This document shows, in pieces, positions 16,252-22,945 of a stretch of 26,162 nt of DNA; positions within the stretch are counted from its first letter, which is position 1, and every line of letters starts with the position of its first letter. The stretch is from Acrasis kona. Lineage: Eukaryota > Heterolobosea > Eutetramitea > Acrasida > Acrasidae. A program made the position numbers and the translations under genes. The notes below the pieces were generated by a model. It saw only the letters and a program-made list of their open reading frames with translations, had not been told where the DNA came from and did no database searches. The stretch lies in the NCBI GenBank assembly GCA_026419775.2, contig JAOPGA020001421.1:1-26162 (forward strand), written 5' to 3'.

Positions 16252-17372
16252 TGTTATCAACAAATTCATTTTTGATGATCATTAGTATTTTACTGCCCTG
16301 TTGTACGAAGAACAAGTATAGTTACGATTACGAGTAACGGAGTTACGAGTCAATCTAATTATGGTGTTTTGAGCTACAAACAGGCAGTATGACCTTATCC
16401 TCTACCGAGGAATATTCGAGAATGTTTTGAATATTCTGTATGCCCAAGATGAGATCACTAAATAAAGATTAAATAATAATTTTAAATAACCGTTACGTAG
16501 TAAAAAACGACGTTCCTTTTTCTATAAAAAGAGTTGAACTATCTTATGAATACTACTAACAAAAATGAATCTAGACATGAACGAATGTTATAGTGAAGAC
16601 TATTGCGAAAGCCCACCAGAAGAAGCTCCTGATCTGATAGAGCAGTACCAAGATGAGATCGACAAGTTAGTCAACAATGAGATCGATCAAGATGATTTGG
16701 AGTTTGACGAATTTGAGCTGGACGAGCTCGATGAGTTTGAACTGAACGAGCAGATTCAGTACATGAAACCTAGGAACAACGGAATTGACCAACTGACATT
16801 CAGTACAGTCATTGTTATGGAAAATGGAAGTGTAAAAGTCTGTCTCCCAAAAGCAAAGACAGACCCAAATGGTGTTGGTTCATCAATAATGATTGCAGCT
16901 TTGAAAGATAGCCCCTACTGTCCAGCGGCTCCGATTAAAAGGTACATTGAAGCTGTTCCAGAACACATCAAAATGACGAAAGGCGGAAAATTTTTCAGAT
17001 GTGCCAACAAGAAAGACGAGTTTACTTGTCTACCAATTGGAAGGAACACACTCGGTAAATTTACAAGAGAGATGGCGGGCCTAATCATAGACCTATTGCC
17101 ACAAGATGTGCAACAAGAAGTCACCACTGGAGAGGCAAGTACTCAAAGATCTAGTATGGCAAATAAAAAAATCGGATTGAAGAGGTACAGCGGTAGATCA
17201 GGTCGTCGTACAGGTGCAACGTTACTAGCAGGCAGCGAAGCTAGTTTTGGAGATATCATGAGAGCTGGGAGATGGTTAAATCCCAAAACAGTCAATAGAT
17301 ACGTGGAGGAAAACGATAGAAGAAGAGAATCAGTATCACAAGTACTGACTCATGAGATAGTTGGTGCTTCAT
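16252..17372 (+). mobile_element. ~1.1-kb insert carrying a tyrosine-recombinase ORF
   Basis: Interrupts the transposase between its first Asp and second Asp, at a point where the two halves otherwise adjoin with nothing missing. It is flanked by TCCTCT on both sides (16246-16251 and 17373-17378), a candidate 6-bp target duplication. No terminal inverted repeats were seen. It holds its own TATA-like box and the 283-codon frame at 16565. Confidence 0.6.
16523..16530 (+). promoter_or_regulatory. TATA-like box of the inserted recombinase gene
   Basis: TATAAAAA about 35 bases before the ATG at 16565, comparable to the box before the surface-protein gene at 18951. Confidence 0.45.
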
Positions 17373-17416
17373 TCCTCTACCTTTTGATGTATCTCGAATA
17401 TATTTATAAACAATAG
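16565..17416 (+). CDS. Tyrosine recombinase catalytic domain with acidic N-terminus
   Basis: An intact 283-residue frame. Residues 1-65 are strongly acidic (DQDDLEFDEFELDELDEFEL) and unlike an integrase. From ~75 the protein matches a tyrosine-recombinase catalytic domain, starting just after the first catalytic Arg: strand segment LTFSTVIVMENG, CLPKAKTDPNGVG, PYCPAAPIKRYIEA, then GRSGRRTGAT (R211/R214 at the HxxR positions), DIMRAGRWLNPKTVNRYVEE (Tyr246 as nucleophile, R236/W237 at the H/W position). The core-binding domain and the first Arg are missing. The last ~15 residues run past the insert boundary (17372) into antisense transposase sequence. It may be a truncated integrase or a new gene built from one; without Arg-I, normal strand exchange is not expected. 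Confidence 0.75.
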   Translation: MNLDMNECYSEDYCESPPEEAPDLIEQYQDEIDKLVNNEIDQDDLEFDEFELDELDEFELNEQIQYMKPRNNGIDQLTFSTVIVMENGSVKVCLPKAKTDPNGVGSSIMIAALKDSPYCPAAPIKRYIEAVPEHIKMTKGGKFFRCANKKDEFTCLPIGRNTLGKFTREMAGLIIDLLPQDVQQEVTTGEASTQRSSMANKKIGLKRYSGRSGRRTGATLLAGSEASFGDIMRAGRWLNPKTVNRYVEENDRRRESVSQVLTHEIVGASFLYLLMYLEYIYKQ

Positions 17417-18540: not shown

Positions 18541-18625
18541 AGGACGCAACCAGGTTTGAACTGGTGACCTGACGATCTGCAGTCGCCTGCTCTAAAGCTA
18601 AAAACAACCGCTGAGCTATACGTCC
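18541..18625 (-). tRNA. tRNA-Cys(GCA) with a 12-nt insertion in the D-loop
   Basis: Cloverleaf on the minus strand: acceptor GGACGTA/TGCGTCC with discriminator U73 (a Cys identity base), D-stem GCTC/GAGC, anticodon stem GGCGA/TCGTC with loop CTGCAGA (anticodon GCA), T-stem ACCAG/CTGGT. No anticodon-loop intron. A T-run follows the 3' end, fitting Pol III termination. The D-loop is 12 nt too long (18594-18605, GTTTTTAGCTTT on the tRNA strand) just after GGTT; without it the D-arm becomes GCTCAGCGGTTAGAGC, the usual form. Confidence 0.93.
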
Positions 18626-18894
18626 GATTTCAAGGCAGGTAAATCTTTAAATCTCATTTACAATTAAAGTACCCATATCAGGATACACATAAAACATTCA
18701 TGATGTGTCTTACCCTCAGAATAATAGTACCTAAAAAACGGATAATGTATCAAGATACCCAGACTTCATATAATTTACAAGTTATGGTTCAGCACGAATC
18801 CTGGGCTTACAAAATCGTCGAATTTTACATTTTATTTATAGACATCAATTACCATCTTAAGGATTGACAAGATATTAATGTCATGTGACTTGTG

Positions 18895-18902
18895 TATAAA
18901 TA
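18895..18902 (+). promoter_or_regulatory. TATA box of the surface-protein gene
   Basis: TATAAATA, 48 bases before the ATG at 18951, with an A/C-rich leader (ACAAACAAATCAGAACAACA) between. Confidence 0.6.
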
Positions 18903-18950
18903 GGATATAGTTTCAAGACTTTATTCACAAACAAATCAGAACAACACAAC

Positions 18951-20570
18951 ATGAGAATACTCATTTCATTATGCGCACTAGTTGCCTTGACTTATGCAGC
19001 CTCCGTCGATCTCTTGATCGCAAAGGACTTGTTGTCAAACCCTGCCAATGGAGGTCCATCCACCTACCACAACAAGGATCAGTACTCCATTTCTTGCTGT
19101 TCCGCCAGCAATGCAGCATATTTATTCACTGCCTACAACGTTGCATCGCTCTCTGGTAAACAAATCACAAGTGCCAACCTATACGTGAGCGTACTTTCCA
19201 ACACACCACCCCAACGTGTTTCCGAGAACGACAATTCAAGAAATCCCAACGTTCAATTCTTCAATGCAACAGATTTTTCAGAGACACCAACCACCAACAT
19301 TGGTGAGTTCCCTGACTTTGGAAGCGACATCACCACCCTCTACTTGAACAACCAACAAGTATCAAGCTTTGACGTTACTTCTTTCGTTAAGGACGCTGTT
19401 GCCTCCAAAAAGGAATTCTTCAACGTTGGATGGAACCCAACCGGTGGTATTGGAGCATCCGTTACCGTTCAAGCCAGAGAAGCAAACAGCAGATCATCAT
19501 TCTTAAGAGTTGTTTATGAAGATGCTTCAATTGCACCAACATGCCCACCATGCCCATGCGGTGAGGTCAACCTTTCAGGTGACAACAATGCATCACCAGC
19601 AAGACATATCAGAACAACATGCCCAGTATGCAAACAATGCCCATCATCTGCTGCACCAACCACTGCTGCACCAACTGTCAACTTGACCCCAAGACCAACA
19701 ACATCCGCACCATCAACCAGTGCACCAACCACCACCTGTCCACCATGCCCATGTGGTGAGACCAACCTATCTGGAGAAAACAACGCTTCACCTGCAAGAA
19801 GACTACGCACTACTTGCCCAGTCTGCAAGCAATGCCCAACCACCAGCGCACCAACAACTAGTGCACCACCAGTTAACTTGACTCCAAGACCAACAACATC
19901 CGCACCAACTACCTCTGCACCAAAACCAACCACCAGCGCACCAACCACTTCTTCACCACCAGTTAACTTGACTCCAAGACCAACAACATCTGCTCCTCAA
20001 ACTTCACAATCACTCAAACCAACCCTACCAGTCTGCAATGCCAACCTCTCAGGTGACAACAACGCTTTACCAGCAAGAAGAGTCAGATCCAACACTTGCC
20101 AAGCTAACTTATCTGGAGACAACAATGCATCACCAGCTAGAAGATTCAGAAACGTATTCGCTCAAGAATGCAATGGAAATGGATACTGCAGTGGTGGATC
20201 ATGCGTATGTAAGCCAGGATATCAAGGAGCTGATTGCGAAGAAGAATGCTTACAAGTCAACCCATGCTGGACATGCCCAAGTGGATTTGTTCACTGGTAT
20301 GAAACTGAGTTGACCAAGGCACCTGGTGATGATAGATGTGCTTGTGTTCCAGGTTCATCAACTTCCGCTGCACCAACTACCTTGCCACCAGTCAACTTGA
20401 CTCCAAGACCAACCACTAGTGCACCAATTACTTCTGCACCAAAACCAACAACTAGAGCCCCTACTCAAAACGAGTCTGGAGACGATTTGTCAAGAGAGAA
20501 CAACTCTGCAGCTCAAAAATCATTCTTCGTTGGAGTTGCAGTTGCAGTGATTGTCGCTTTTGCCATGTAA
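18951..20570 (+). CDS. Secreted GPI-type surface protein: DNRLRE-like domain, Cys-rich modules, EGF-like domain
   Basis: A 539-residue protein with signal peptide MRILISLCALVALTYA (cleavage likely near residue 17). Residues ~18-192 resemble a DNRLRE/CBM96-type domain, a beta-sandwich often binding polysaccharide: ITSANLYVSV, FDVTSFVKDAV, FLRVVYED. Then two full modules CPPCPCGE...CPVCKQC (198-230 and 263-295), each around NLSG[DE]NNASPAR, two further copies of that unit without the Cys frame, and an EGF-like segment CNGNGYCSGGSCVCKPGYQGADC. Between them are Thr/Ser/Pro stretches with VNLTPRPTTSAP four times. The end, NESGDDLSREN...FFVGVAVAVIVAFAM, is a GPI-type signal. The Cys module and NESG-D pre-anchor tail are shared with the sedolisin at 1228-4026. 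Many N-glycosylation sequons. A cell-wall or adhesion role is inferred. AATAAA-like signals follow the stop. Confidence 0.85.
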   Translation: MRILISLCALVALTYAASVDLLIAKDLLSNPANGGPSTYHNKDQYSISCCSASNAAYLFTAYNVASLSGKQITSANLYVSVLSNTPPQRVSENDNSRNPNVQFFNATDFSETPTTNIGEFPDFGSDITTLYLNNQQVSSFDVTSFVKDAVASKKEFFNVGWNPTGGIGASVTVQAREANSRSSFLRVVYEDASIAPTCPPCPCGEVNLSGDNNASPARHIRTTCPVCKQCPSSAAPTTAAPTVNLTPRPTTSAPSTSAPTTTCPPCPCGETNLSGENNASPARRLRTTCPVCKQCPTTSAPTTSAPPVNLTPRPTTSAPTTSAPKPTTSAPTTSSPPVNLTPRPTTSAPQTSQSLKPTLPVCNANLSGDNNALPARRVRSNTCQANLSGDNNASPARRFRNVFAQECNGNGYCSGGSCVCKPGYQGADCEEECLQVNPCWTCPSGFVHWYETELTKAPGDDRCACVPGSSTSAAPTTLPPVNLTPRPTTSAPITSAPKPTTRAPTQNESGDDLSRENNSAAQKSFFVGVAVAVIVAFAM

Positions 20571-20807
20571 AAAAATTAATACATAAATAAATATTTGAAT
20601 TAAAAATTAATGAATGACCTCATTTTTGTTGCGGTGAAACACAGGAGAACGAAGAGAGCATATTATCTTTTGGAACAAATTAAAGTCCACTTCGATCGCA
20701 ATACTCGACATGACAACCACATACTTTTGAAAATCTGAACTTCACACTGCACTCAATCTAACTTAGAGAATTCACAAATGAATTTTTATTATGTCAAGAT
20801 AAAAAGC
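20571..20807. other. 3' flank and intergenic
   Basis: Polyadenylation-like AAATAAATAAA near 20584, then no feature up to the tRNA except its T-run terminator (TTTTT on the minus strand at about 20801-20805). Confidence 0.5.
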
Positions 20808-20902
20808 TGTTCGAACTGGGGATTGAACCCAGGACCCTAAGTGAACTTACAGATTGTAAGACTTATGATCTTTGTAGATAAAAACCACTGATCTATCCGA
20901 AC
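20808..20902 (-). tRNA. tRNA-Val(UAC) with anticodon-loop intron and D-loop insertion
   Basis: Minus-strand cloverleaf: acceptor GTTCGGA/TTCGAAC, discriminator A, D-stem GATC/GATC, anticodon stem TAAGT/ACTTA, T-stem CTGGG/CCCAG. An 11-nt canonical intron after position 37 (20844-20854) pairs CTTACA with TGTAAG, and its removal gives loop CTTACAC, anticodon TAC. In addition 11 nt (20872-20882, TTTATCTACAA on the tRNA strand) enlarge the D-loop right after GGTT; without them the arm reads GATCAGTGGTTAGATC. The tRNA is followed by TTTTT. Tyr(GUA) was considered because of the intron, but G1-C72 and the loop position favour Val. Confidence 0.85.
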
Positions 20903-21877: not shown

Positions 21878-22945
21878 ATGGATGCATTCCACTTATCAAC
21901 TCTCCTCCCAATCACAATAAATGACAACGACCTTCATCAGTGCCCTCAATTATCAAAGCTTTTACAGAAATTATCCGAAAAATTATCACCCATTGGTTTA
22001 GATCATGCCAAGACAGAGGATTTAAAAAGGATGAATCACACACTCAATAATGAGAAACAATTATACTTTCAAAGCAAATTAGTGATAGATGCGACAAAGG
22101 AGGTATTGGATAACTTACAAAAACAACCGCTCAATAACGACCAAGATGTAGAGCAGAGAATACAATCTTTGAACCTTTCCAAACTTATACATTTATCAGA
22201 AACAGAAAGCCTTCTTAGCATCTCTGATGAGCATGAGAAAAACCTATATGGGCTAACACCGGAGAATATATACCAGTGCAATGCCCCCACAGACATTCAA
22301 AACATTGAACAGTTTATTCAAACAAACATTTATCCAGAAGTAGAAGAGAAGTTACAACAAAAGTATGATTCTTTGGTCCAATTTTTCAATCCAGGTTCTC
22401 ACTCGGACATTGACGAACTCAACCAATCGCAAATCCTCAACATCACAATGTCTGGTAGGTACACACTTCCAAATGAAATCAACAAGATGAAAAAAAAGAT
22501 TCAAACGGACAAGGACAATGTTCAGAGGGAATGTGAAAAGACTTTTTTGAACTACTGGGCCTACTTTAGGTGCTTAGCCGAAAGTATTGATGTACTAATT
22601 ACTATTCTTGAAGATTATAAATTAAAATCATTTCATGAGTTTGATGAAGTTTACTTGTTACATTTACGTCAAACATCTCACACTATGAGGTTAAAATTAA
22701 AAGTAATTGAGTATCAATGTATCAACAATACGTATAATTTGAACGCGGTTCAGTCCTTGAAGGAGATGAGAGCGCTTCTAGAGAAGGAATATGAGAGTTG
22801 TCTGCAACAATCGGATTTGGTTGATAAGGAGTTGGAACAATATAATGTGGTTGGTGCTAATTTTGGTAAACTAGTGGAAGAATATACTCAACTGTGTCAA
22901 AAGATCAAACTCAAGAAGTGGGAGCTTGAGCAACTTGAAGAATAA
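21878..22945 (+). CDS. HAUS4: HAUS augmin-like complex subunit 4
   Basis: A 355-residue, intronless, helical protein. Augmin binds existing spindle microtubules and recruits gamma-tubulin to nucleate branches. The length is close to the family's (~360). Recognisable parts: an N-terminal CPQLSKLLQKLSEKL segment, the central KYDSLVQFFNPGSHSD, and the C-terminal block YNVVGANFGKLVEEYTQL...KKWELEQL, which is the best-conserved part of HAUS4. The rest is coiled coil, as expected for a subunit that pairs with HAUS5-like coiled coils. AATAAA overlaps the stop codon. Presence of HAUS4 implies that this organism keeps augmin-dependent spindle assembly. Confidence 0.9.
   Translation: MDAFHLSTLLPITINDNDLHQCPQLSKLLQKLSEKLSPIGLDHAKTEDLKRMNHTLNNEKQLYFQSKLVIDATKEVLDNLQKQPLNNDQDVEQRIQSLNLSKLIHLSETESLLSISDEHEKNLYGLTPENIYQCNAPTDIQNIEQFIQTNIYPEVEEKLQQKYDSLVQFFNPGSHSDIDELNQSQILNITMSGRYTLPNEINKMKKKIQTDKDNVQRECEKTFLNYWAYFRCLAESIDVLITILEDYKLKSFHEFDEVYLLHLRQTSHTMRLKLKVIEYQCINNTYNLNAVQSLKEMRALLEKEYESCLQQSDLVDKELEQYNVVGANFGKLVEEYTQLCQKIKLKKWELEQLEE

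Follow-up and report, generated by a model that had tools for sequence, protein, structure and literature searches.

Short inserts in the D-loops of Acrasis kona tRNA genes are probably introns at position 20/21

In the usual teaching, a eukaryotic nuclear tRNA gene that is interrupted has a single intron, at position 37/38. Two tRNA genes in the nuclear DNA of Acrasis kona, a heterolobosean of Discoba, carry extra bases in the D-loop, and the question raised by this locus is whether such bases are introns or belong to elongated D-loops, the two possibilities named in the original prediction. The genes lie in a stretch of 26,162 nucleotides (the window), which is contig C737 of the assembly of 37.35 Mb and 1021 contigs that was searched here. 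We consider it probable, at roughly 85%, that the inserts are tRNA introns at 20/21 that would be removed by the tRNA splicing endonuclease (TSEN); the places of cutting, the enzyme and the subsequent ligation are all inferred from the genes. The features of the two genes are as follows.

18541..18625, minus strand: tRNA-Cys(GCA) gene; RF00005, 52.4 bits, whole model (cmscan); 16 genes with an identical body in the genome
18594..18605, minus strand: D-loop insert of tRNA-Cys, proposed intron at 20/21, 12 nt; read from the sequence; sequence and length vary among the 16 Cys genes
18610..18612, minus strand: AGC, bases 14-16 of the Cys D-loop, proposed as the exon side of a helix with the intron; partner GCT at 18596-18598
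18596..18598, minus strand: GCT, intron strand of the proposed Cys helix, followed by the bulge TT/A21; from sequence and pairing score
20808..20902, minus strand: tRNA-Val(UAC) gene with two insertions; RF00005, 45.3 bits, whole model (cmscan); 12 genomic places
20872..20882, minus strand: D-loop insert of tRNA-Val, proposed intron at 20a/21, 11 nt; boundary from the insert-free sister L053 (loop TTA)
20885..20888, minus strand: G15 T16 G18 G19 of the Val D-loop, proposed as the exon side of the helix; 4/4 pairs with CTAC at 20874-20877, the same in the MFE fold
20874..20877, minus strand: CTAC, intron strand of the proposed Val helix, followed by the bulge AA/A21; from pairing score and MFE
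20844..20854, minus strand: tRNA-Val intron at the standard position, 37/38, 11 nt; missing from the Val copies L054, L055, L056 and L058

Both D-loop inserts were found where and at the length originally predicted, in genes that match RF00005 over the whole model, and the surplus bases fall in the D-loop of that alignment. The Cys insert would measure 13 nt and reach 18606 if the second T after GG were intronic, a choice that an insert-free Cys gene would be needed to decide. The predicted 37/38 intron of tRNA-Val was likewise confirmed, since sister genes without it show its boundary; by eye, its GTAAG can pair with CTTAC (bases 32-36), followed by a bulge TT/C38. The anticodons GCA and UAC, and all isoacceptor names used below, were read by eye from the anticodon loop. 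ARAGORN, run with the bacterial code, listed neither tRNA (18541-18625, 20808-20902), a sign that genes of this kind can escape annotation.

The neighbourhood also holds three open reading frames of note. The one between the two tRNAs (18951-20570, 539 aa) has EGF-like matches, a sub-threshold CBM96 match and many Thr-Pro repeats, and its product is probably secreted. The frame at 21878-22945 (355 aa) encodes HAUS augmin subunit 4 (PF14735) and is 100% identical over 80% of its length to the A. kona protein AKO1_013815 (285 aa). The frame at 16565-17416 (283 aa) resembles by eye a tyrosine recombinase of mobile elements and gave no Pfam match.

How far the inserts extend beyond this locus was assessed by BLAST with each of the two tRNAs, followed by A-box/B-box patterns with long and short spacing; RF00005 over the genome scored 63 of 2352 candidates, 59 of them listed, and the census was built on the patterns instead. 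BLAST with tRNA-Cys found 16 places, all with an insert, and with tRNA-Val 12 places (L047-L058), one of which, L057, is truncated at the 5' end. We observed a D-loop insert in 128 of the 183 genes counted, in 16 isoacceptors, and 55 genes without it. These numbers are a lower bound, as Ala, Gln, Pro, Phe and Tyr are among the isoacceptors beyond the reach of the census. Chance is excluded, because the insert recurs at the D-loop site in 128 genes. Genes with and without the insert are distributed as follows.

Ile-AAU 20/0, Cys-GCA 16/0, Asn-GUU 15/1, Thr-UGU 10/1, Glu-UUC 10/10, Ser-GCU 10/1
Val-UAC 10/1, Arg-ACG 6/6, Lys-UUU 5/0, Asp-GUC 5/16, Ser-UGA 5/6
Ser-AGA 5/4, Arg-CCU 4/0, Ser-CGA 3/0, Arg-UCG 2/1, elongator Met 2/8

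Short-spacing patterns recovered Trp (4), Arg-UCU (2), Thr-CGU (3), a second Met family (9) and His (8) without any insert, and long-spacing patterns recovered Leu-UAG (5) and Ile-UAU (5, with a 37/38 intron) equally without one. The BLAST and pattern searches of the genome turned up no insert-free gene for Cys, Ile-AAU, Lys-UUU, Arg-CCU or Ser-CGA, so these tRNAs must either be spliced or be used as they are. The 55 insert-free genes comprise 24 tabulated rows with Asp raised from 1 to 16, 10 Glu genes (one with a single change) and 6 Arg-ACG genes: in an earlier tabulation of inserts the 16 insert-free Asp genes had been entered once, and those of Glu and Arg-ACG were not then known. The additions made by hand came from the short-spacing patterns (6 of 13 rows for Arg-ACG, 26 of 40 rows for Asp and Glu). 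Rows were dropped from the first long-spacing pattern (15 of 74: 7 not tRNA, 5 Ile-UAU with a 37/38 intron, 3 unclear tRNA-like), the second and third (15 of 30 and 17 of 28), the fourth (11 of 66: 6 not tRNA, 5 Leu-UAG without insert) and the first short-spacing pattern (25 of 35: 18 tRNAs of insert-free families, 5 tRNA-like repeats, 2 not tRNA). A GATCGA B-box pattern gave 3 rows over the genome, none of them tRNA. A few counted rows have single changes elsewhere in the body, e.g., Thr on C521 and Asn on C130.

Several sequences met during the census are recorded here in their own right. The Asn-family copy with an insert at G000:C130:49087-49150 has the anticodon ATT in place of GTT. Genes that by eye resemble tRNA-Ile(UAU), on contigs C604, C633, C785, C822 and C830, combine a 37/38 intron with a normal D-loop. 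A repeated tRNA-like sequence on C211, C296, C408, C676, C801 and C347 has blocks like the A- and B-box and does not resemble a normal tRNA; it is perhaps a tRNA-derived repeat or organellar. Unclear tRNA-like sequences on C69, C557, C698, C379, C543 and C973 are perhaps mitochondrial or of mitochondrial origin.

The families that mix genes with and without the insert are informative about its nature. Insert-free sisters exist in 11 isoacceptors and match the insert-bearing genes in sequence around the site. Measured against these sisters, the insert is 10-21 nt long in 80 of 80 genes, exactly 10 nt in 34 and 1-9 nt in none; the long and short spacing ranges for the TAGC, TGGC and TAGT genes jointly cover this empty interval, and the other 48 insert-bearing genes, which are without such a sister, stand outside the comparison. 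The Cys bodies are identical outside the insert in all 16 genes and the inserts differ; in five duplicate pairs recognised by their flanks the inserts are 0 or 1 base apart, so that they seem to drift. The 11 Val genes have a common core body, with an acceptor stem in L052 (G000:C931) that is altered on both sides and still paired. Six of them combine the D-loop insert with the 37/38 intron, four have the D-loop insert alone and one has the 37/38 intron alone (the latter intron is thus present in 7 and absent from 4 genes of identical core body), and the sisters lacking one or the other insertion define both boundaries. For every one of 56 unique inserts from nine isoacceptors some cut restores the exact loop of the sister. 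An interruption at a fixed site whose removal would restore a normal tRNA is the pattern expected of a protein-spliced non-canonical intron, and that is the pattern these genes present. T-runs, the expected terminators of pol III, lie downstream of 25 of 27 insert-bearing or sister Cys and Val genes (0.174 at random positions) and of 18 of 18 insert-free genes from three families.

The original prediction had the end of the insert pairing with the 3' strand of the D-stem. We did not find this partner to exceed shuffled inserts (mean 2.48 vs 2.28, sd 0.26; 109 unique inserts), and it was rejected. The partner that stands out is the D-loop's 5' half. Towards its 3' end the insert tends to pair with bases 14-19 of the isoacceptor in which it lies, and a bulge remains in front of A21. 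The best 4-bp pairing between the two averaged 6.88, compared with 5.09 (sd 0.20) in shuffled inserts (z 9.1; 109 unique inserts). The own D-loop was better than foreign D-loops in 16 of 16 isoacceptors and better than shuffles in 15, Thr being the exception (4.12, below its shuffles at 4.65). Full 4-bp helices were formed by 67 of the 109 inserts, as against 41.6 on average and 55 at most after shuffling and 27.8 with foreign D-loops; among them are AGTG with CACT in Asp, AATG with CATT in Arg-ACG, GTGG with CCAT, CCAC, TCAC or CTGC in Ser and with CTAC or CTGC in Val, and AGCG with TGCT in 6 of 13 unique Cys inserts. The Cys copy at 18541-18625 makes 3 of the 4 pairs and is not among the perfect copies; its MFE fold favours a neighbouring helix one step on, where the 3' gap is again 3 nt. 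For 95 of 109 inserts the MFE fold kept the D-stem together with three or more exon-insert pairs (61 when shuffled, sd 4.2), and most folds close in a loop after the helix, i.e., as bulge-helix-loop, the 3' bulge and helix being common.

Covariation points in the same direction. Among unique inserts from five isoacceptors, a C at base 16 is opposed by G in 16 of 16 and a T there by A in 17 of 18 (Fisher 1.5e-8, uncorrected for kinship and in a register picked after inspection of the data), and Arg-CCU holds both states, with three genes C16/G and one T16/A. Such p-values are too small, because paralogous inserts are not independent. When D-loop types were swapped between groups, the true assignment came first of 120, narrowly (35.03 vs 34.89).

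We also asked whether a fixed cutting rule would return the sister loop. In this rule each cut falls after the second base of the bulge. Built on the textbook motif, in which a 4-bp helix goes with bulges of 3 nt (PMC4090602), it returned the exact loop (TA, TTA, ATA or TAGA) for 40.3 of 56 unique inserts, compared with 7.4 (sd 2.4) after shuffling, in the nine isoacceptors whose sisters were then known and with ties counted as fractions. By isoacceptor the outcome ranged down to 3 of 12 in Asn and 0 of 4 in Ser-AGA. A rule with a helix of free length succeeded for 20 of 56 (4.8 shuffled), a weakness due to wobble pairs of G19, which extend the helix in Thr and Asp. This outcome was known when the 4-bp rule was applied; the 4-bp scoring itself is older and comes from the pairing test. 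Among sisters seen after the rule and compared by hand, Arg-ACG (loop AA) fits for 4 of 5 inserts and Glu (loop TTA) for 2 of 9. Overall, a helix between exon and intron beside a 3-nt 3' bulge is predicted above the level of shuffles, not in every isoacceptor, with Ser-AGA failing and Thr falling below its shuffles. The non-uniform motif (Ser-AGA, Asn, Glu, Thr), the weak free-length rule and the narrow swap rank count against the intron reading.

These data suggest how the inserts could be removed. The intron would follow base 20 or 20a, and in most isoacceptors the next base would be A21. Within the primary transcript its 3' part would pair with D-loop bases 14-19 in a short helix, which a bulge, usually of 3 nt and ending in A21, would part from the D-stem; the resulting bulge-helix-loop would look like a tRNA splice site and have the layout of the 37/38 intron in the same Val gene. 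TSEN would make one cut in the bulge and the other in the loop opposite, and ligation would then free G15, G18 and G19 for the tertiary fold.

The main alternative is that mature tRNAs keep long, freely varying D-loops, bulged at a site after base 20 that tolerates differences in length. The natural length variation at this site makes retention conceivable, G18 and G19 are preserved, and the variation of the inserts is equally expected of an unconstrained loop. Against it stand the absence of lengths between 0 and 10, the insert-free genes that share the sequence around the site, and the helix itself, which engages A14, G15, base 16, G18 and G19 in varying registers. In mature tRNA A14, G15, G18 and G19 make the 8-14, 15-48, 18-55 and 19-56 contacts. 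The pairing and covariation with bases 14-19 would lock these bases, and since the mature tRNA needs them free, their complementarity to the insert fits a precursor rather than a finished tRNA. We therefore regard retention as unlikely; of the two possibilities originally put forward, introns are favoured by the mixed sisters, the 10-nt floor, the isoacceptor-specific pairing, the covariation and the pairing of bases that the mature tRNA needs free.

The enzyme that the intron reading calls for appears to be encoded. The PF01974 profile found two genes in the genome, L089 and L090, which match the Sen34 and Sen2 chains of PDB, respectively. Aligned with 8iss_C, L089 matches the three residues (Tyr, His and Lys) that PMC10539383 gives as the triad of human TSEN34, and both catalytic subunits, TSEN2 and TSEN34, are thus predicted from the genome. 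It counts against TSEN that the human enzyme is described as sensing the mature body, including the D-loop region (PMC10539383), because a D-loop intron would disturb the body so sensed. Hence the inserts could be introns cut by another nuclease or by an enzyme dedicated to the D-loop, to which the lack of a clean bulge-helix-loop in some isoacceptors (Ser-AGA) would also be suited. We consider this very unlikely, as TSEN2 and TSEN34 are present and the Val gene itself repeats the helix and 3-nt bulge at its 37/38 intron. That the genes are pseudogenes, as has mostly been assumed for short D- or T-arm insertions found in one of many synonymous eukaryotic genes (PMC4090602), or carry footprints of an element inserting into tRNA genes, is scarcely credible, since all 16 Cys genes have the insert in an intact body and none is insert-free, the changed acceptor stem of Val L052 is still paired, and footprints would neither pair with the D-loop of their own isoacceptor nor keep a 10-nt floor. 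Decayed bodies accompanied by working insert-free genes elsewhere were not what we found, although one of the 12 Val places is truncated, and the silent pair of pseudogenes among insert-free genes that would have refuted the original prediction did not materialise.

A further and tentative idea is that the inserts are tRNA introns caught while spreading. A recurrent process would insert a short intron at 20/21 in gene after gene, with the insertion mechanism or selection tuning its 3' end to each D-loop; families mixed for presence would be snapshots of gain and loss, and the endonuclease might have shifted from the 37/38 ruler to any bulge-helix-loop. We hold this to be possible, though doubtful.

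The proposed D-loop introns concern the majority of the genes counted for 16 isoacceptors, in a member of Discoba that is free-living, and two introns, one of them in the D-loop, would be present in 6 of 11 Val genes. Gene finders build in the single intron at 37/38, and the tRNAscan-SE 2.0 paper states that eukaryotic tRNA genes are limited to one (PMC8450103). The tRNA annotation of such genomes may be incomplete. If confirmed, D-loop introns would not be confined to archaea, algae and nucleomorphs, a considerable shift of TSEN specificity would be possible, and mixed families, e.g., Asp with 5 genes with and 16 without the insert, would make the gain and loss of tRNA introns directly testable. 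In a literature search with most subscription papers and all preprints outside its scope we found no report of D-loop introns in Discoba, and in the main text of the Acrasis genome paper "tRNA" occurs twice, each time for synthetases. As far as these searches show, the lineage, the one dominant site, the scale and the families mixed for intron presence are new.

Introns in the D-arm as such have been described in archaea, in nuclear genes of the red alga Cyanidioschyzon merolae and in nucleomorphs. C. merolae resembles what is proposed for A. kona in that its nuclear tRNA genes have D-arm introns and may hold more than one intron each (PMC9602550), with motifs that PMC6379350 describes as relaxed bulge-helix-bulge; it differs in having introns in the D-, anticodon and T-arms together with permuted genes (PMC9602550, PMC3978253), whereas A. 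kona, a non-photosynthetic amoeba, has one dominant site and mixed sisters. Among archaeal non-canonical introns the site 20/21 is listed, and a helix and 3-nt bulge define the splice site (PMC4090602); relaxed forms of the motif exist (PMC6379350), but the strict form has two 3-nt bulges around a 4-bp helix and an outer helix within the intron, in contrast to the mostly single bulge, helix and loop of A. kona. In the nucleomorph of Guillardia theta, D-arm insertions of 3-24 nt occur in 9 genes and their excision was confirmed by RT-PCR (PMC4090602); that nucleomorph is a reduced endosymbiont genome, and many of its introns are without a defined BHB motif (PMC3978253). The standard eukaryotic 37/38 intron differs in position, and its recognition by human TSEN includes the D-loop region (PMC10539383), but it shares the exon-intron helix and the 3' bulge, and it occurs in A. 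kona itself, in the Val-UAC and, by eye, the Ile-UAU genes.
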